DNA of 64,000 nt from Planctomycetota bacterium (GTDB lineage: Bacteria > Planctomycetota > MHYJ01 > JACQXL01), in contig JACRIK010000014.1 in assembly GCA_016235865.1 (NCBI GenBank), forward strand, positions 17,371-81,370. Direction: 5' to 3'. The position numbers and the translations under genes are program-made. The notes beneath the pieces were generated by a model, which was not told the DNA's origin, ran no database searches, and saw only the letters and a list, made by a program, of their open reading frames with translations. Below, in pieces: positions 11,015 through 54,624 of this stretch. Numbering within the stretch: position 1 is the first letter of the stretch; every line of letters begins with the position of its first letter.

Positions 11015-11065
11015 ATTATTGGGTAGGGTGGTAGGACGTAGATTTAGCGTCTTTTCATCCCTTCT

Positions 11066-11212
11066 TATAACGGCTTCGTTACGAGTTATAACGGCAACGT
11101 TACGAGTTATAACGGCAACGTTACGAGTTGTAACGGCAACGTTACGAGTCATAACGGCAACGTTACGGGTCATAACGGCAACGTTACGAGTCATAACGAC
11201 ACCGTTACGGGT
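11066..11212. repeat. 21-bp mini-hairpin array A, 7 units
   Basis: Seven units of exactly 21 bp start at 11066, 11087, 11108, 11129, 11150, 11171 and 11192. Each has a 5-6 bp stem TAACG/CGTTA around a 4-nt loop (GCAA in five units, GCTT in one, ACAC in one), then a 5-nt spacer. Substitutions fall in the loops, the outermost pair and the spacers, while the stem core is unchanged. GCAA is a GNRA-type tetraloop, so an RNA copy would be a string of small stable hairpins. It is not a CRISPR array: there are no unique spacers. Confidence 0.9.
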
Positions 11213-11500: not shown

Positions 11501-12214
11501 ATGGCCGGTAAGAGAGGCAGTGACTGGATTCCGAACAAGGATAGTGAGTTTTTTACCAAGCAGCGCATCTATGTGGACCGGGTGGATACGAATAAGGTTG
11601 CCTGGGGCATCCCGGATGCTGATATTCAGGTGCTGAAAGACCTGCGCGCGGAGTATGAGCCGCGTTACAAGCAGGTGTGTATTAAGCAGAACCGGACCAG
11701 CGCCCAGGTTTCGGCGCACCGGGCCTGCCGCAAGCGATACGAAAAGGCCTGGCGGGCATTTCACAAGGAATGGGTTCTGAATAACCGCCGTATCCCCAAA
11801 TCAGACCTATTAACACTGGTCGGCCGGGAACCCGATATCAAGCCCACGCCCAAGCCGAAGATTAACGATATTCCCTGGGTCGGCTTGACGCCCATGGGCG
11901 GCGGCTGGATAAAGGTCACTTGCCGAAGGTTGACAGATGAGGACAGTCCGAGCATGCATAATGACGCAGATGTGATAGAATGTCGGTATACGTTTCTGCC
12001 GGTCCATATCAAGCCGGTGGAAGGCAAGAAGTTTTTCTTCCCGACTCCGGAGGAATGCCAGTATGTGCAGAACTCAACCCGGGCGCGGTTTATCATCAAG
12101 TGCGCGTCCGAGGGTGTGGGCATGAAGTTCTACGGCTACTTCCGCTGGGTTAATCAGAGAAATCCGGCCAACAACGGCTCCTGGACCAATGGACTGCAAG
12201 TGGTGATAGCTTAG
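11501..12214 (+). CDS. Orphan protein A (D-W-I-P-x-K-D family)
   Basis: 237 residues, no signal peptide or membrane helix. The start DWIPNKDSEFF matches the start DYIPEKDAAFN of the 52.6-kb orphan. Residues 1-100 are helical with many Arg/Lys; the C-terminal half is beta-rich (IPWVGLTPMGGGWIKVTCR, then RFIIKCASEGVGMKFYGYFRWVNQ) and may be an Ig/FnIII-like sandwich. Such proteins are known to me only as uncharacterised. It begins with ATG after AAAGG and is preceded by the repeat array and hairpin leader. No neighbour suggests a pathway. Confidence 0.7.
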   Translation: MAGKRGSDWIPNKDSEFFTKQRIYVDRVDTNKVAWGIPDADIQVLKDLRAEYEPRYKQVCIKQNRTSAQVSAHRACRKRYEKAWRAFHKEWVLNNRRIPKSDLLTLVGREPDIKPTPKPKINDIPWVGLTPMGGGWIKVTCRRLTDEDSPSMHNDADVIECRYTFLPVHIKPVEGKKFFFPTPEECQYVQNSTRARFIIKCASEGVGMKFYGYFRWVNQRNPANNGSWTNGLQVVIA

Positions 12215-34067: not shown

Positions 34068-35230
34068 TAGCGCGGGAATCTGCCCGGCAGGGATATACCT
34101 ATCCTACTAACCGGATATTATCTTCTGCCTGCATCCCTGTTACGGATAATCCAATGGGATACTATTCCTGGCCTGGCCGGGTATTATGCCTAATCCCGGA
34201 GCCGATATCCTCTGCTTACGCCTGCTACATATCCTAAATTACCTGGGTATGTATTTGTGCCTGATAGGATATGCCTGCTGAATCATCGGGGCAGTATAGC
34301 CGGAGAAATAGTATATGCCTTCTTAAATAATAGGGTATGTATGGCGCAAGCGCCTGGTATAGTTCTCTTATCAGTCGGGTATGCGCGACAAAGACAAAGG
34401 GTAGGCAGGGTAAATCAATATGGTATGCTGGATGGGGGTATATACTATGCTTGGTGTATCCACAGCCATATAGTCCCGACCGTACATCCTACCAGACCTT
34501 GCCTCACAGGGTATTACGGGTTGCGTCTATGGGTGCCAGAGGGTAGGGGGGAGGGTGGTAGGAGGGGGGGTGGGGGGTACTACCCCCTGACGCTTGGGAT
34601 AATAGGGTATATCGGTGGTGGTATTACCATAACCGGATGGGGGTATTAGGGTTAGTGATAACGACTAATACCAGATGACTCAGGGGGTGTCAGGACTTGC
34701 CGCTGGGGATACTACCATCTGGGTTAGGGGATAATACCTCATCCGGCTACCACTGATACCATGTCTGGCCAGTGATAATAGGTCTTGTGGTTGGCCATAA
34801 TACCACGTATGGCCAGAGGTATTACCAGTAACGGACAGAGGTATATGGCTGTAGAGCCATAGAGCCGGGGGAGTAGGGTTATTTAGCATAGGGTATTGCA
34901 ACAGAGAATATATGCTATTTCTTTTAGATACCACTTGATATTGGACAGAGGTATGGTTATATTACAATGGGGAGAAGATAGGGCTTCTCCAAGGATATGT
35001 CCGAGGGATTATATATAGTTATGGGGCGTATCAGCAGAGGCATAGGGCAGTGCATTAGAGGAATGGGGCTCGTTCTAACAAGAGCATATGCGTGTGGATT
35101 AGGATGCGTATACTCCTGTTACTAAGAGCATAGGTGACTGTTGAGTGAGGCATACTCATAATCATTGCCCATAAGCCCCTGGAAGAGTTGGTATATCCGG
35201 GGTAGAGAACGCGGAGCGTACTCCGTAGGG
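34068..35230. repeat. Degenerate 22-bp phased region B (non-coding)
   Basis: About 1.1 kb with no credible protein. GGTA/GGAT words recur with two-helical-turn spacing, best at 34246-34422 where they occur at 34246, 34267, 34334, 34356, 34378, 34400 and 34422 (steps 21, 67, 22, 22, 22, 22). Complementary TACC words appear around 34630-34830, so hairpins such as ATACC...GGTAT are possible. It also has long G runs (34540-34590). A TTGATA-17-TATATT promoter at 34935-34963 could read into the orphan gene. Less regular than the 21-bp arrays. Confidence 0.65.
34935..34963 (+). promoter_or_regulatory. Candidate promoter within region B
   Basis: TTGATA (34935-34940), 17-bp spacer, TATATT (34958-34963). 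It would give a long 5' UTR of about 435 nt for the orphan gene at 35407. Chance occurrence in an AT-mixed region is possible. Confidence 0.4.
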
Positions 35231-35406: not shown

Positions 35407-36216
35407 ATGAGTAAAGTAGTAAGTTTTCTGCGCGTCTCGGCCACCGGCATTGCCTCAGACCCGCCCACCGGGGTATCTGTTCCGGACGGGTCCAAGGAAC
35501 AATGGCAGGAGGCGATGATTCTCAATGCCAGCCGGATTAACCAAAAACGCAAGAAGAAGATTCCGGACCAGCCCAGATACGAGACCAATATTGCCGGCTC
35601 GTCCATCAAGACCTGGGGCAACTTTATTGACCCGAACTTTATCAGCCGGTCCGGACGGACCAAGTCCAATATCGTGGCCACGCATGCCCGGGCTATTTCC
35701 CAGGGCTATGCCAAATATAACCAGCATCTGGACGAGATGTTCGCCACCGAGGACGGCGTGCCCTGCAAGAAGTTCCGGGACAAGGTCACGGCCGCGGCGG
35801 ACCGCTATGCCCAAAAGGCCCGGATAATGATGGGCCTGACCGGCAACAAGGTGACCGGCTACGGATGCAACGTGGTCATTCCGCTCTGGATTGCCAATGA
35901 CTCGCGCATCGCCGGGATGATTGGTCCGGGCGACAAGATGAGCGGCGGGCCGGTGGATATCATCAGGCCGGGGCTGCTGGTGCCGTTCAAGGGCGGGATA
36001 GTGTCGCTGTTAAATCAGGGCGGTTTCATGGTGGCCATGTCCAAATTCAGCCCGGAGATTATGCTCTATGAGAACATGCGCAACAATGATTTCCTGTCCG
36101 GGTTGCAGGACAGTGTCAAGTATGAGAAATTCTCCGTGGGCGGCGCCTCGCACTGCGACTGGGTCTCGGACATCGACCTGGGGCTTTGTTTGGAGGTGCA
36201 GATAAGCGAGAAATAG
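35407..36216 (+). CDS. Orphan protein B
   Basis: 269 residues from the ATG at 35407 (GGGGG 8 nt upstream); a GTG at 35398 is the alternative. No signal peptide; no family recognised. The N-terminal 40 residues are Ser/Pro-rich, residues 40-140 basic and helical (ASRINQKRKKKIPDQP, ARAISQGYAKYNQHLDEM), and the rest has beta and hydrophobic stretches (VIIPLWIANDSRIAGMIGPGD, LVPFKGGIVSLLNQGGFMV). It does not resemble orphan proteins A and C, but it has the same leader layout. Cytoplasmic by default. Confidence 0.65.
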   Translation: MSKVVSFLRVSATGIASDPPTGVSVPDGSKEQWQEAMILNASRINQKRKKKIPDQPRYETNIAGSSIKTWGNFIDPNFISRSGRTKSNIVATHARAISQGYAKYNQHLDEMFATEDGVPCKKFRDKVTAAADRYAQKARIMMGLTGNKVTGYGCNVVIPLWIANDSRIAGMIGPGDKMSGGPVDIIRPGLLVPFKGGIVSLLNQGGFMVAMSKFSPEIMLYENMRNNDFLSGLQDSVKYEKFSVGGASHCDWVSDIDLGLCLEVQISEK

Positions 36217-47712: not shown

Positions 47713-50700
47713 ATGAGCAAGAAGAGCGGTTTTATGTTTGACGCCAAGCTGTCATCATTGGACCCGGACATTGTTTCATTTATAAACGCCGAAGAGCAGC
47801 GGCAGTCCAATAATCTCCTGATGATTGCCTCGGAAAGCTTGTGTCCCAAGCCGGTGCGCGAGGCCCTGACCGCGGTCTTCACCAACAAATATGCCGAGGG
47901 TTATCCGTCCCTGCGCATGACCATCGAGGAGCGCAACCGTATCGAAAAAGAGCCCGAGCGCTACCTGGCTTTCCACCGTCGTTACGGCGACCGGAGATTC
48001 TACAAGGGCGCGGAATTCTCCAACTTCGTCGAGGTCCTGGCCCAGCGCCGGGCCGCTGAAATATTCGCTAATCCCAACGCTCCGGTGGACGGGATATTCG
48101 TCAATGTCCAGCCGCTCTCCGGCGCGGCCGCCAATAACGCCGTCTATAACTCGTTCCTGGTTCCGGGCGATGTGATTATGGGCATGTCGCTATCCTACGG
48201 CGGACATCTCACCCACGGCAGTCCGTTTAACCGCTCCGGCCGTCAATACAAGGTCATTCCATATACCGTTGACTTGAAGACCGGCCAATTTGACTATGAA
48301 GCGCTGGAAAAACTGGCCATGGAACACAAGCCCAAGATAATCATTGCCGGCGCCAGCGCATTCCCCTGGAATATCGATTGGGCCAGGTTCAAGGCCATCG
48401 CGGAAAAGGTCCCGGTCCAGATTACCGGCCTGACCAGAACCGGCGCCATACTCATGGCTGATATCTCGCATCCGGCCGGATTGGTCGTAGCCGGTCTATT
48501 CAACAACCCGGTCGGCGTGGCAGATGTCACCACCTTTACCACGCATAAGACCATGTGCGGCCCGCGCGGCGCAGTCATTATCTCCTCTGACGAAGAGATT
48601 GCCAAACGCATTGACCTGGGCGTATTCCCGGGTGAGCAGGGTGGTCCCCATCTTAATAATATCACGGCCAAGGCCGTGGCCTTTAAGATTGCCGCGACCA
48701 AGGAATTCAAGGCGCTCCAGCAAAATATAGCGGCCAACTGTAAGACATTGGCTGATGAATTCCGGAAACTGGGATTCCAGCTGGCTTATGGCGGTACCAA
48801 TACCCATCTGGTTCTGATTGATTTAGATAGTTTGAAAGGCGGGTCAGGCATTCCGCCCAAGGGCGACATCGCCTCCAACATCCTGGATATCTGCGGGATT
48901 ACCTGCAACAAGAACGCCTTACCGGGTGACGAAACCGGCGCCCGGCCGCGTGGCTTGCGCTTCGGAACAACCGTCCTGTCGCAGTTAGGTATGGGCGCTC
49001 CGGAGATGAAGAAGATTGCCCAGCTGGTCCACTATGTCCTGAGCAATATCAAGACCTTTACCGTCATGAGTCATTCCGGCGAGATAGTCCGCGGTAAGAT
49101 TGACCTTGAGGTAATGGAAAAGACCCGGGCTGAGGTTAGCAAACTCATGAAGTGCAAAGCCAAGGGCGCGGCACAAAAGGGCAATGCCATCGAAGTAGTC
49201 GGCGAACGCGCTATTGCCTTCCTGCAATCGCTGGTCTCCGAGAATATTTATCTGTTAAAGCCGGGTCAGGCCATCCAGGCCACGCTCAAGGTTGGTAACA
49301 GCACCAGCGAGGTTGTTTTCAAGATGATGCAATCGGATACTTTTTTGGTTGTTCCCCCCAAAGCTAAGATTGACACCATAGTCAGATACTTTAATGGCCT
49401 CTCAGACGGCTATATCACCTGGAAAACGGATGACATCTACGCCAAGGTTGAAGGCCCGGTGGTGATAAGGCTGACCCGTAGTGTCATTCTGAGCAAAGCG
49501 AAGAATCTACTGCCAAAGGAGACCCTTCGTTCCACTCAGGGTGACATTAAGAGGATTGACTTCGTCTTCAAACCCTTTACCGGCGAGCCGCGCCGGACAT
49601 CATTATACGAGGAGCATCTCAAACTGACCAAGGCCCAGTTTCTGGTCCCGTTTGCCGGATGGTCCATGCCGCTCTGGTACACCCGGGCCAGCGAGGAGCA
49701 TCAAGCCGTGCGCGCCGCGGCCGGGCTGTTTGATGTCTCGCATATGGGCAAACTGGAAATCTCCGGCGCCTATGCCACCCGATTCCTGGATATGGTCACC
49801 AGCAACTATGTGCCCAAACTCCAGATAGGCCAGTCGCATTATTCCTATGTGCTTGATGCGGTCGGAAGTCCGCTGGATGATATCCTGCTCTATAGAATGG
49901 AAGAGCAGAAATACCTGATGGTGGTCAACGCCTCCAACAAGGAAAAGATTGAGCAGTGGCTCAATGCAGTCAATGCGGGTGAGGTGATAATTGACCGTGA
50001 CAATCCGAATCGCGGATTGGAATCCAGCGTCAAGATAGTTGACCGGGCCGTAGAAAATGACTGGGTCAACGTGGCGCTCCAAGGCCCGATCGGCATTAAG
50101 ATACTGCTCAAGCTCACCGGAAGTAAGGAAGACGCCCAGAAACTCCGATGCCTGAAAAAGACATTCTTTGTCGAATTGGAGTTGAATGGTATTACCGCGC
50201 TAATCGCCCGGACCGGATATACCGGCGAGGAAATTGCCTATGAGATATTCGTGGCCAGGGCCAATGCGCCTCGTTTCTGGAATCTCCTGCTTGAGACCGG
50301 CAAGGAATTCGGCATCAAACCCTGCGGACTGGCCGCCCGTGATTCACTCCGGACCGAGGCCGGACTGCCGCTCTACGGGCACGAACTCAACGGCGAGAAT
50401 AATGTCATGCCCACCGAGGCCGGCTATGGCGCATTCATTAAGCGGCACAAGCCGTTCTTTATCGGACGTAAGGCATATATCCAAAGAGAAAAACAATCAG
50501 AAAAGAAAATCGTGCGCTTCAAGATAACCACACCCAATGCCCGGGCCATCAAACCCGGTGATGCGGTTTACCAGTCGGCCAGCAGACCGGCAGACCAGCA
50601 GACCGGCGGACAGGTCGGCATAGTCACCAGTTGCACGCTTGCCACAGGCGGACAAATTGGCCTGGCGCTGATTGACAAGAAGAATGCTATTCAGGATGCC

Positions 50701-50796
50701 GTGTTACAGGTGATTCCAACACCCAGGCCCGGCAGTCAGCAGACAGTGCAACCGGTTGACGCAATTATCCTGACGAGGTTTATGGTTAAGGGATAA
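47713..50796 (+). CDS. Serine hydroxymethyltransferase-GcvT fusion
   Basis: 1027 residues. Residues 1-480 are a PLP-dependent serine hydroxymethyltransferase: LTNKYAEGYPS-like FTNKYAEGYPSLRM, GGHLTHGSPF, and the PLP lysine in FTTHKTMCGPRG. A bridging domain of about 110 residues (480-590) is not recognised. From about 625 the sequence is aminomethyltransferase GcvT: VPFAGWSMPLWYT, FDVSHMGKLEISG, RTGYTGEEIAYEIF, GLAARDSLRTEAGLPLYGHEL. Both use tetrahydrofolate and act in glycine-serine one-carbon exchange, so a fusion would channel methylene-THF. The linker (590-612, SVILSKAKNL...TQGD) is encoded by a palindromic element at 49482-49548. Confidence 0.88.
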   Translation: MSKKSGFMFDAKLSSLDPDIVSFINAEEQRQSNNLLMIASESLCPKPVREALTAVFTNKYAEGYPSLRMTIEERNRIEKEPERYLAFHRRYGDRRFYKGAEFSNFVEVLAQRRAAEIFANPNAPVDGIFVNVQPLSGAAANNAVYNSFLVPGDVIMGMSLSYGGHLTHGSPFNRSGRQYKVIPYTVDLKTGQFDYEALEKLAMEHKPKIIIAGASAFPWNIDWARFKAIAEKVPVQITGLTRTGAILMADISHPAGLVVAGLFNNPVGVADVTTFTTHKTMCGPRGAVIISSDEEIAKRIDLGVFPGEQGGPHLNNITAKAVAFKIAATKEFKALQQNIAANCKTLADEFRKLGFQLAYGGTNTHLVLIDLDSLKGGSGIPPKGDIASNILDICGITCNKNALPGDETGARPRGLRFGTTVLSQLGMGAPEMKKIAQLVHYVLSNIKTFTVMSHSGEIVRGKIDLEVMEKTRAEVSKLMKCKAKGAAQKGNAIEVVGERAIAFLQSLVSENIYLLKPGQAIQATLKVGNSTSEVVFKMMQSDTFLVVPPKAKIDTIVRYFNGLSDGYITWKTDDIYAKVEGPVVIRLTRSVILSKAKNLLPKETLRSTQGDIKRIDFVFKPFTGEPRRTSLYEEHLKLTKAQFLVPFAGWSMPLWYTRASEEHQAVRAAAGLFDVSHMGKLEISGAYATRFLDMVTSNYVPKLQIGQSHYSYVLDAVGSPLDDILLYRMEEQKYLMVVNASNKEKIEQWLNAVNAGEVIIDRDNPNRGLESSVKIVDRAVENDWVNVALQGPIGIKILLKLTGSKEDAQKLRCLKKTFFVELELNGITALIARTGYTGEEIAYEIFVARANAPRFWNLLLETGKEFGIKPCGLAARDSLRTEAGLPLYGHELNGENNVMPTEAGYGAFIKRHKPFFIGRKAYIQREKQSEKKIVRFKITTPNARAIKPGDAVYQSASRPADQQTGGQVGIVTSCTLATGGQIGLALIDKKNAIQDAVLQVIPTPRPGSQQTVQPVDAIILTRFMVKG
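49482..49548. repeat. Palindromic element inserted in the glyA-gcvT linker
   Basis: 67 bp, ends TGTCATTCTGAGC and CTCAGGGTGACA, inner AAAGCGAAGAATCT and AGACCCTTCG; this is a familiar dispersed repeat in bacterial genomes. Read in frame, it gives about 23 residues between the two enzymes. Confidence 0.85.
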
Positions 50797-52186: not shown

Positions 52187-52214
52187 TTGACATTGACAGA
52201 TAGGACAGTATAAC
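52187..52214 (+). promoter_or_regulatory. Sigma70-type promoter at the edge of the array C
   Basis: TTGACA (52187-52192), 16-bp spacer, TATAAC (52209-52214). A second TTGACA at 52193-52198 overlaps. Transcription would begin within the first array unit. Same TTGACA-16-TATAA layout as at array A. Confidence 0.6.
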
Positions 52215-52216
52215 AA

Positions 52217-52447
52217 ATACTGGAGTCAGTATAAAAGATACTGGTTCAAGTATGAAAGATACTGCTTCAATTATAAGATATACTGGTATAAGTATAAATG
52301 ATACTTGCACAAGTATAAACTATACTGCTATAAGTAAATAAGATACTGGTATCAGTAGAGGAGATACTGAGTCAAGTATATGATATATTTGAACAAGTAG
52401 AAGATATACTGGTGTCAGTAGGAAATATACTGTGGTGAGTAATACTA
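52217..52447. repeat. 21-bp mini-hairpin array C, 11 units
   Basis: ATACT (once ATATT) begins units at 52217, 52238, 52259, 52280, 52301, 52322, 52343, 52364, 52385, 52406 and 52427, an exact 21-bp step throughout. Most units can form a 4-6 bp stem (e.g. ATACTG-GAGT-CAGTAT) around a 4-nt loop with a 5-nt spacer. In the unit at 52301 the inner G-C pair is replaced by T-A (ATACTT-GCAC-AAGTAT), and in 52385 a U-G pair keeps the stem; unit 52259 is broken. The design equals that of array A although the sequence is unrelated. Confidence 0.9.
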
Positions 52448-52469: not shown

Positions 52470-52540
52470 TGTCATTCCCGAGAAAGCGGGAATCCAGTAG
52501 GTCCAAAGAGGTCTGGATTCCTGCCTGCGCAGGAATGACA
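52470..52540. repeat. TGTCATTCC palindromic element, copy 1
   Basis: Ends TGTCATTCCCG and AGGAATGACA with CCAG..CTGG inside; relative at 55761-55830. Confidence 0.75.
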
Positions 52541-52571: not shown

Positions 52572-53267
52572 ATGAAGAGAGATTATATCCCAGAAAAGGA
52601 TGCGGCATTTAATGGGTGGCTGGCGAGTTTCACTAAATATATAGAGTCCCATTATGCGGAACTGGGGTTATCGGCAACTGATAAGGACAATATCGTTGCC
52701 GCTAATACCGGCTGGAAGACTGGCTATCAGGCGCATATGACGGCCCAGGGTGCGGCCCGGGGCGCAAAAGAGAAAAAAGATAGCATCCGGAAGACGGCCG
52801 AATCGCTGGCCCGGAATCTGGCCCAGCGGAGCACTGTTTATCCCGGGACAACCGATGGCCATCGCGCGGGAATGGGTATGAGACCGCTGGATACCAATCC
52901 CACCCCGACTGCGCCGGAATATGTCGGCACTTTAGAACCGCCGTTGTTGGTGCTGGACTGGTCGCTCCGCAGCCAGGTGGTGATTCATTTCGGGGTCAAT
53001 CCGGCCAATGAAAAGGAGAATTCCAAGCCCGCGGATATTGCCGGCGTTAAACTCTGGTTTCGCCGGAAGGGCGAGGATTGGCAATTTCTGGCCGATGATA
53101 CCAATAGTCCTTATACGCACAACCTGTCTGACATAGTGCCTATCGGGGCGCAGGCCGGTCTGGGGATAACCGAGCCGCAAAATGTGGAATATAAGGCCCA
53201 GTGGTTTGATAAGAAGATGCGTCTCGGCTCTTTCGGCCAGACGGCTAAGTGCACGGTGACGCCGTGA
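52572..53267 (+). CDS. Orphan protein C (D-Y-I-P-x-K-D family)
   Basis: 231 residues from the ATG at 52572 (AAGGAG upstream); the ATG at 52545 is rejected, as it lies in front of the site. The start RDYIPEKDAAFNGWLASF is shared in pattern with orphan A (DWIPNKDSEFF). Residues 1-95 are a helical bundle (ANTGWKTGYQAHMTAQGAARGA), and 125-230 are beta-rich with a DWSLRSQVVIHFG start and VKLWFRRKGEDWQFL, YKAQWFDKKMRLGSF: an Ig/FnIII-like fold. No signal peptide. The function is unknown. Confidence 0.72.
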   Translation: MKRDYIPEKDAAFNGWLASFTKYIESHYAELGLSATDKDNIVAANTGWKTGYQAHMTAQGAARGAKEKKDSIRKTAESLARNLAQRSTVYPGTTDGHRAGMGMRPLDTNPTPTAPEYVGTLEPPLLVLDWSLRSQVVIHFGVNPANEKENSKPADIAGVKLWFRRKGEDWQFLADDTNSPYTHNLSDIVPIGAQAGLGITEPQNVEYKAQWFDKKMRLGSFGQTAKCTVTP

Positions 53268-53269
53268 AA

Positions 53270-53335
53270 AGGTTACAAAAAGTTACAAGATGTTACATTG
53301 AGGTTACAAGAGGTTGCAGTAATCTTTTGTAACAT
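53270..53335. repeat. 10-bp phased GTTAC repeat (array D)
   Basis: GTTAC recurs in steps of 10, 10, 11 and 10 bp, ending with the inverted GTAAC. The array lies between orphan genes C and D, 11 nt before the ATG of D. One helical turn per step, half of the 21-bp arrays. Confidence 0.6.
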
Positions 53336-53346
53336 CAGGAGGATTT

Positions 53347-54624
53347 ATGCCTACCTACGAACAGGCCAAGGCAGAATTGCTGGCTGAGTTGGATGCCTGG
53401 GATAAGTTTGACGCCGAGAGAGAATCATTGCCGCCGGAAATAGAAGAGGCCAAGGCGGCCGCCGCTGACTTCGGTCCGTCTGGGGCTATCATCCGGTCAC
53501 GGCAACTGATTCCGCTTATATTGGAGCGTCTTGAGAAGGACATCAAAGATAAGACATACCCGTCTGATTTGGTGGTCCAGATGCTTGGCGCGGCGACTAT
53601 CATTCTTGCCACAAAACGGAAATGGATTAGCGAACGGAATAATTTAGACCCGGATATTTATCCGTCAGCGCAGGAAAAGGCCGTAATCGATGCCTCAAAA
53701 TCATTCCAGACCTCCCTGAAGAAGTGGATGGCGACCGGCATCAGGTTTAAGGCGGATATGGAACGGCTGTATCTTGACCTTTGGATAATCGGCAGTTGGT
53801 TGCTGGACCTTGCCGATAATTCCCGGCGCCACGGCGAATGGCCGCCCGATGAACCGGGGCAATGGAACGAGAAAGAGTGGTGCGCCTATTTCTGGCGCAA
53901 TCTTAGCAGACGCTCGCCATTCATCAGTTATGTGGAGCGGCACGGTCTGAGTATCGAGTCGCTGGACAAGGGCTTTGCTGAAGAGGAGATTTTCAGTCGC
54001 CGGACTAACCAGCGGGCCGGGGACTTTGTCAAACGTTATGAATTGGAACGCCAGACCGCCTTGGCCTGGGATAAGGAACATCCCCTGAACTATCTGGATA
54101 TGAAGGAATTGCCGGCTCCACCGCCTGAAGACAACAGCGATTACCACGTGGAGAGTATTGATATCAATGAAGAATCCTGTAAGGAACACGAGAAATGGCG
54201 CTCGTCACTGCCTGAAATTGACCGCTGGAATGAGCATTCCGAAAGGCGGCCGGTTCAGCCATACCAGAAAGACCCGGCATTTAAAGAATTGAGTAAGTTC
54301 ACTTCCAAGATAATCAAGGCATCCAAGGATAACTGGAAGCATCAGCAGATGGAGTCGGACCATCCACGGAACTATCGCCCGCCCCTGGACCAGTATCTGG
54401 TGCTGTTGGTCTTATGCGCGGACGGTGTGATGATTCACGGACTGATAGACGAAGATGACGACACGGAAATATTTGATAAGAACCGAATAAAGGGGTGCCA
54501 TCTCTTCTGCGCCGAGGTATTCACCAAGTTCGCCCAGGCAATAAATCTCTATAAGGATTCGGCCTATCGCAGCCTGGCCAGCGAGGCCCTGAAACTTGCC
54601 CGGAAAATATCACTTCGTACATGA
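53347..54624 (+). CDS. Orphan protein D
   Basis: 425 residues, mostly helical and charged, no signal peptide, no family recognised. Visible features: acidic and basic alternation (residues 1-60), DADMERLYLDLWIIGSWLLDLADN-like segment around 140 (one possible amphipathic helix), a Pro-rich patch (ELPAPPPEDNSDY) near 258, and a C-terminal ALKLARKISLRT. A strong AGGAGG site precedes the ATG. It may be cotranscribed with C. Function unknown. Confidence 0.65.
   Translation: MPTYEQAKAELLAELDAWDKFDAERESLPPEIEEAKAAAADFGPSGAIIRSRQLIPLILERLEKDIKDKTYPSDLVVQMLGAATIILATKRKWISERNNLDPDIYPSAQEKAVIDASKSFQTSLKKWMATGIRFKADMERLYLDLWIIGSWLLDLADNSRRHGEWPPDEPGQWNEKEWCAYFWRNLSRRSPFISYVERHGLSIESLDKGFAEEEIFSRRTNQRAGDFVKRYELERQTALAWDKEHPLNYLDMKELPAPPPEDNSDYHVESIDINEESCKEHEKWRSSLPEIDRWNEHSERRPVQPYQKDPAFKELSKFTSKIIKASKDNWKHQQMESDHPRNYRPPLDQYLVLLVLCADGVMIHGLIDEDDDTEIFDKNRIKGCHLFCAEVFTKFAQAINLYKDSAYRSLASEALKLARKISLRT

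Follow-up and report, generated by a model that had tools for sequence, protein, structure and literature searches.

What keeps a tandem array of 21-bp units directly ahead of a protein-coding gene, and what is the array for? We address this for array C and the gene downstream of it, which encodes the protein P0004, in a stretch of 64,000 nucleotides analysed as a whole (the window). The window also holds a second array of the same period (array A) and one of another type (array B; Table 1).

Array C and its surroundings

The sequence-only reading from which this work started had described eleven units at an exact 21-bp step, and this is borne out. The units start at 52217, 52238 and so on to 52427 with zero indels, and the lag-21 identity over 52207–52447 is 0.691, far above that of 5000 simple shuffles (0.299, sd 0.030, maximum 0.441). 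A half-unit, AGTAT, lies at 52207, ahead of the array. The stem, ATACTG-N4-CAGTAT, has six pairs, the four middle ones being whole in 9 of the 11 units; unit 52385 carries one wobble and unit 52259 one broken pair. Pairing is lost at the outermost position in 5 of the 11 units and at the innermost in 6. The innermost G-C is replaced by T-A in unit 52301, as had been claimed along with the changes in 52385 and 52259, and likewise in unit 52385. Selection on pairing had been suggested from these changes; covariation exceeds a permuted control over the arrays as a group (see below), but in array C alone it is not above chance (z −0.3).

The promoter-like TTGACA-16-TATAAC is indeed present ahead of array C, and its −10 part overlaps the first half-unit. 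A promoter ahead of every array is not supported, as promoter-like sites before the arrays of 35 loci have a mean score of 5.35, close to that of shuffled sequence (5.39, sd 0.29), with no enrichment. The palindromic element between array C and the gene we take, by its look, to be REP-like. Beyond the gene, a 10-bp GTTACA-type repeat (window positions 53268–53326) separates it from the following gene, which starts at 53347, encodes 425 aa and has no family match. On the other side of array C, window positions 47713–50796 hold a single 1027-aa ORF in which serine hydroxymethyltransferase (91–438) and aminomethyltransferase GCV_T (633–907) domains are fused.

Table 1. Positions of the arrays, genes and associated elements in the window
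Feature	Position	Strand	Remarks
Array A	11065..11209	+	21-bp units TTATAACGGCAACGTTACGAG, dyad TAACG-gcaa-CGTTA
SDWIP gene, downstream of array A	11501..12214	+	distant member of the same superfamily as DYIP
Array B (22-bp type)	about 34253–35140		
Promoter-like TTGACA-16-TATAAC (candidate)	52187..52214	+	TTGACA at 52187, TATAAC at 52209
Array C	52217..52447	+	11 units, each exactly 21 bp, dyad ATACT...AGTAT
Palindromic element GTCATTCCCG...GGAATGAC	52472..52540	.	in the spacer between array C and the gene
DYIP-family gene (protein P0004)	52572..53267	+	ATG at 52572, 231 aa
Codons 1–13 (MKRDYIPEKDAAF), N-terminal arm	52572..52610	+	residues co-vary with array sequence in close relatives

The DYIP protein family

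The downstream gene had been called an orphan, which is not strictly so: 81 database proteins, counting the query, match P0004 at E ≤ 1e-3, and none of them has a Pfam domain. P0004 itself gives no match at E ≤ 1 in Pfam, NCBIfam or PHROGs, and matches among 75 family members are only weak and scattered. Two genomes carry 13 near-full-length members each.

In the AlphaFold2 model of P0004 (pLDDT 88.6), residues 1–9 of the N-terminal arm are predicted as coil, followed by two long helices in the N-terminal half and an Fn3-like beta domain in the C-terminal half. The matches that Foldseek listed for the model are mainly Fn3-containing chains, including several Fn3 domains at E 4e-5 and weaker; the C-terminal half is thereby predicted, by structure search, to be an Fn3 fold, which sequence models do not detect. 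The model shows no known DNA-binding fold, and the family proteins are not basic (median pI 5.9, 80 proteins).

No neighbouring gene recurs widely, the commonest neighbour families in our clustering reaching just 4 of 37 loci. A gene with GAVTTxKI repeats, whose product is tail-fibre-like by look, lies directly downstream of a DYIP-superfamily gene in 4 of 37 loci (L026 and C1, C21 and C3 of the window's own genome). The MTGNPNF proteins form a second helical and Fn3-like family; all three own-genome members (L170, L173 and L174) have a 21-bp array upstream, and their N-terminus likewise appears variable.

A 21-bp array precedes nearly every examined gene of the family

We assembled 53 distinct relatives of P0004 from Planctomycetota, WOR-3/Stahlbacteria, KSB1, Sumerlaeota, Elusimicrobia and other MAGs; three with under 110 bp of upstream DNA were set aside, and 10 fragment matches were skipped. 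A scan of GTDB contigs added 29 loci (Brocadiia/Planctomycetota, WOR-3, Stahlbacteria, KSB1, Sumerlaeota, Elusimicrobia, or plain ‘bacterium’), and a further search, through seven of those genomes, gave 52 matches: 30 already with loci, 10 added and 12 left out (10 partial and 2 no more than 80 bases from a contig end). Duplicates (L005/L016, L006/L026, L008/L018, L010/L020, L009/L014 and L001/window) and fragments (L011, L013, L015, L038, L043 and L044) were dropped; the N-terminal fragment L015 has 248 bp of upstream DNA with no array there.

The check that had been proposed, whether DYIP-family genes are preceded by such arrays, gave an array in 48 of the 50 distinct genes having at least 110 bp of upstream DNA. 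As to the two failures, L048_537 has a mis-called start and its array was detected in other analyses, while L209 scores 7.1 against a cut-off of 8 with lag 21 still its best period. Consistent with this count, among genes with a start, the best lag between 12 and 45 is 21 or 42 in 31 of the 32 upstream regions long enough; the 32nd, L026 at a contig edge, gives a tie. Some arrays are short, namely those of L005 (3.4 units), L006 (2.7), L235 (3.0) and L231 (4.2).

At a strict cut-off, 206,984 bases of flanking DNA (genes and the 950 bp upstream of them excluded) contain zero period-21 arrays and two arrays of periods 12 and 14, while 18 of 29 upstream zones contain 19 arrays. A looser method (TRF) found four short 21-bp repeats of 2.1–2.9 copies in the flanks. 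Two observations had been set beforehand as refuting the earlier reading, arrays missing upstream of homologues in relatives and arrays equally common in random intergenic regions, and neither appeared. The linkage across the family, with units that are mostly unrelated, strongly supports the earlier proposal that the arrays represent a recurring design and not copies of a single repeat.

The same association holds within the window's own genome. P0004 has three close paralogues, each behind a different 21-bp array, and the SDWIP gene has four, every one with a 21-bp array upstream; a profile search of the 2.03 Mb examined found nine ORFs of DYIP and SDWIP kin, all nine with a 21/42-bp array directly upstream. 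Arrays A and C have no common unit sequence, as had been noted, but their genes belong to one superfamily; the promoter spacing said to unite them is not general. At C26:75489 in the own genome, an array that has no DYIP gene is built on the same unit as the SDWIP-gene array at C1:598.

Step, length and symmetry are kept while unit sequence changes

The arrays are similar in length, with a mean of 231 bp (sd 35, 36 arrays) and a median of 10.1 units (46 loci), and lie 21 to 272 bp before the ATG; L016, L026 and L033, whose arrays are short or weak, were excluded from the length and dyad statistics. Across 303 units in 29 arrays, we counted 1235 substitutions and 7 one-base indels, and because indels are so few the phase appears to be guarded. 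A step of 21 bp corresponds to two turns of B-DNA. The dyad that had been claimed for the units is supported collectively: it scores 1.499 over 46 loci against 0.984 (sd 0.043) in column-permuted arrays, and z 11.0 over 31 own-genome 21-bp arrays. Furthermore, within-array covariation over 29 loci is 75.1, compared with 39.6 (sd 7.9) in the permuted control.

Unit sequence, in contrast, changes much faster than gene and flanks. Just 33 of 1953 array pairs, some of them one array counted twice, reach a profile similarity of 0.53. In the syntenic pairs L035/L036 and L041/L042, the flanks are 88–95% identical and the genes 92–94% identical in DNA, yet the arrays are unrelated or strongly diverged. 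One unit is shared, in opposite orientation, by MAGs of WOR-3 (L027) and Elusimicrobia (L040), with related genes and a similarity of 0.70.

The N-terminal arm and the array tend to change together in close relatives

Protein comparison of close relatives with differing arrays revealed that amino-acid changes bunch in residues 1–13. Specifically, in four close pairs with different arrays, nonsynonymous changes per site are 5.5/29.2, 7/32, 6.7/30.8 and 7.7/34.2 in codons 1–13, versus 12.5/488, 18/469.8, 12.5/489.5 and 12.5/470.2 in the remaining codons. Pooled, these pairs give 26.9/126.2 versus 55.5/~1918 for nonsynonymous and 9.1/29.8 versus 107.5/~564 for synonymous change; L041/L042 is counted here as a different-array pair, though a similarity of 0.55 remains, the first two units being alike. 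Six pairs with the same array have 0, 0, 0, 1, 0 and 2 nonsynonymous changes in codons 1–13, of 32–35 sites each (3/203 pooled), while the rest of the protein differs by 2 to 22%. Two pairs run counter to this pattern, having similar arrays and different arms: L023/L024 (array similarity 0.57, 8.8/29 nonsynonymous) and win11516/L046 (0.63, 11.3/37.3), both of which were excluded from the pooled same-array count.

Over the 22 pairs with a body identity of at least 0.70, array similarity follows N-terminal identity (Spearman 0.72, p 0.0002) and is unrelated to body identity (0.17, p 0.45). Two trios display the same behaviour in single genes: L022 combines the array and arm of L017 (codons 1–13 98% identical in DNA) with the body of L021, and L036 combines the array and arm of L028 (codons 1–13 100%) with the body of its syntenic partner L035. 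Among 27 distant pairs with similar arrays, identity at the arm-key residues 3, 4, 8 and 9 is 0.454 against 0.245 (permutation p 0.0005), where body identity is 0.36 against 0.31, a small difference that is uncontrolled. L006, L235 and L048_537 were left out of both the 22-pair and the distant-pair comparisons, and their p values are optimistic because the pairs share loci and are not independent. When all 351 pairs among 27 loci are taken, the partial correlation of the N-terminal window with array similarity is −0.055 (Mantel p 0.71), and the highest of the sliding windows is at residues 106–119 (0.264); this test is blunted because most distant arrays show no measurable similarity. The joint change of arm and array lies outside what the sequence-only reading considered.

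Alternative explanations

Array and first codons adjoin, so a single exchange could move both. Arrays might then turn over as a satellite, with recombination between paralogues dragging the first codons along and mimicking a match, an account that we regard as unlikely. In its favour, codons 1–13 of L017/L022 and L028/L036 have zero synonymous change, compared with 55.5/140 and 50.3/135.7 in the rest, and look transferred as judged from the sequence, which fits movement of a DNA piece as well as selection; the arrays of L028 and L036 are alike although the syntenic partner of L036 is L035. However, the spacer that separates array and ATG argues against linkage as the whole story, since its similarity does not go with that of the array: it rises above the null maximum for 3 of 5 pairs with the same array and for 5 of 8 with different arrays. 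In particular, array and arm match within L017/L022 and within L001/L005 but the spacers are unrelated, while L031/L036 have a spacer 88% identical and yet differ in array and arm. In L004/L018 and L004/L020, which have kept their array, codons 1–13 contain 3–4 synonymous changes in 7.3 sites and 0/34.7 nonsynonymous. Moreover, linked exchange by itself leaves the constant period and the dyad unexplained.

About equally improbable, in our view, is an RNA leader, in which the array would be transcribed and its units would fold as short hairpins, bound in their own mRNA by the arm or another factor. Compared with column-permuted units, the real ones do fold more stably (mean z −1.90 over 36 arrays), and the gene strand is slightly the more stable of the two in absolute terms (−7.2 against −6.2 kcal for each unit; 25 of 36, p 0.006). 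The array reaches to within 30 nt of the ATG in 5 of 37 loci and is thus probably transcribed there. The gain over permuted arrays is nevertheless equal for both strands (z −1.90 and −1.90), and one-sided stem changes yield 73 G-U and 62 A-C, where pairing in RNA should favour G-U; on these two results, the RNA hairpin of the earlier reading is not supported. Separate hairpins, furthermore, do not need an exact 21-bp step, and an Rfam scan of the window at the gathering threshold yields just a tRNA. Pairing of the array with the gene start, sense or antisense, gave no signal over swapped partners (7.96 versus 8.10, sd 0.16, in one orientation and 6.61 versus 6.40, sd 0.16, in the other).

We consider it very unlikely that array and gene transpose as a unit, the array serving movement. 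The patchy spread over distant phyla and the many paralogues per genome would suit such a cassette, but no recombinase-like neighbour recurs in the neighbour clustering, L035/L036 and L041/L042 occupy the same sites with the 88–95% identical flanks described above, and a scan of viral contigs for relatives gave 11 pattern matches, none of them a relative.

Scarcely credible is a coding repeat, in which 21 bp would equal seven codons and the array would encode a heptad-repeat peptide ahead of the gene: an ORF covers at least 90% of the array in 19 of 39 cases, and in several WOR-3-type loci that ORF begins MNDL, but open-frame length equals that of column-permuted arrays (0.880 versus 0.878 on the gene strand, 0.927 versus 0.923 on the other), third-position variation shows no excess (0.0571 versus 0.0564, sd 0.0055), and every forward frame of array C is interrupted by 3 to 8 stops, so that, the MNDL-type loci apart, it is rejected as a general explanation. 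In eight WOR-3-type loci (L023, L024, L027, L028, L031, L036, L041 and L042), a conserved leader (ATGAATGATTT...) at the array start opens an M(N/K)(D/N)L ORF that runs through the array.

A protein arm may read its own array

Linkage of gene and array, a 21-bp step kept over about ten units, a dyad neutral to strand, fast turnover of the units and joint change with the arm in close relatives together point to another reading. We consider it rather probable that the array is a double-stranded DNA target, private to each gene, that is bound by the N-terminal arm of the neighbouring protein. Binding and its outcome are what we infer. The arm (xxxYIPxxDxxF) would touch half-sites of roughly 5 bp that are spaced by about one helical turn and alternate in orientation. 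Because the step equals two turns of B-DNA, the sites would face one side, and several copies of the protein would line up along one face of the DNA. As for the outcome, our guess is that the gene most likely controls itself, or else that a DNA-bound scaffold presents the Fn3-like domain. Counting against binding of DNA by the arm are the non-basic character of the family, the lack of a known DNA-binding fold in the model, the null all-pairs test and the two counter-example pairs.

Tentatively, we extend this reading to a widespread self-addressing system, in which each arm would read only the 21-bp satellite of its own gene, both would be replaced together, and the pairs would spell out a recognition code. 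Candidate pairs of such a code would be DYIPE[KR]D with half-sites AGTAT/ATACT, DYIPY[SA]D with CAGT/ACTG, and GYIPG with CCGA/TCGG. In genomes with 13 members, private units would prevent cross-reaction between pairs.

Should the arm read the array, a new recognition code could be deduced simply by comparing dozens of natural pairs, which would also supply orthogonal DNA–protein address pairs, and the family would offer a bacterial case of co-change between satellite and binder, otherwise discussed for centromeres. A family without a known DNA-binding fold appears to be coupled to a private, phase-locked satellite across several phyla of bacteria, and this offers a first approach to what these proteins, absent from Pfam, may do.

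Comparison with known systems

In ParMRC systems, the parC tandem short repeats lie upstream of the gene and are bound by the small adaptor ParR; their sequences differ by family, each tested ParR homologue bound only its cognate parC, and the repeat lengths quoted are 10, 11, 17 and 20 bp (PMC9426499). The DYIP loci likewise have tandem direct repeats beside a gene. Unlike ParR, however, the DYIP protein is predicted to be a helical bundle with an Fn3-like domain and without a ribbon-helix-helix fold, and its specificity would sit in the 13-residue N-terminal arm. Moreover, no ParM-like neighbour recurs by neighbour clustering (at most 4 of 37 loci), which involved no dedicated ParM model, and the DYIP loci lie on chromosome-sized MAG contigs.

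The iterons of plasmid origins are short direct repeats of about two helical turns that adjoin the gene of the Rep protein binding them. Unlike these, the DYIP loci show no match to a Rep domain (Pfam and NCBIfam, P0004) and no replicon sign, and have many paralogues per chromosome. In function, the DYIP system would by analogy resemble ParR/parC or Rep/iterons, yet by these tests it belongs to neither. CRISPR arrays also differ in repeat content between close relatives at one locus; the 21-bp units, in contrast, abut directly without unique spacers and diverge from one unit to the next. In eukaryotic centromeres, satellites and their binders combine a fixed period, a fast-changing sequence and a co-changing binding segment, whereas the DYIP arrays are bacterial, 21 bp in period and present as one array per gene.

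A search of the literature found no description of the DYIP family or its arrays. In our judgement, the family and its arrays represent a new kind of system, because by these tests they fall within none of the systems compared and the search gave no description of them; if the binding is ordinary autoregulation, the novelty shrinks to a version of a known kind.

A separate set of 22-bp arrays in the same genome

A census of tandem repeats in the own genome (2.03 Mb, L070–L169) gave 110 arrays, 32 of period 21/42 and 66 of period 22/44, and the 22-bp arrays are a separate system. They form 59 clusters with a median gap of 26 kb and are more evenly spaced than random intergenic positions (CV 0.51 versus 0.85, sd 0.11; 0 of 1000 as low), whereas the 21-bp arrays are not regularly spaced (CV 0.98). 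The dyad of the 22-bp arrays is weak (z 3.9), and their unit families recur at 2–6 places in both orientations. The gene at window positions 35407–36216 belongs to a family (also L050–L069) that has no Pfam match; the own genome yields 20 matches to it at E ≤ 1, and at E ≤ 1e-6 G003 yields 22 and G005 yields 32. Several members of this family have 22-bp, not 21-bp, arrays upstream; at a strict threshold, a 22-bp array lies within 1.2 kb upstream in 8 of 17 ORFs.
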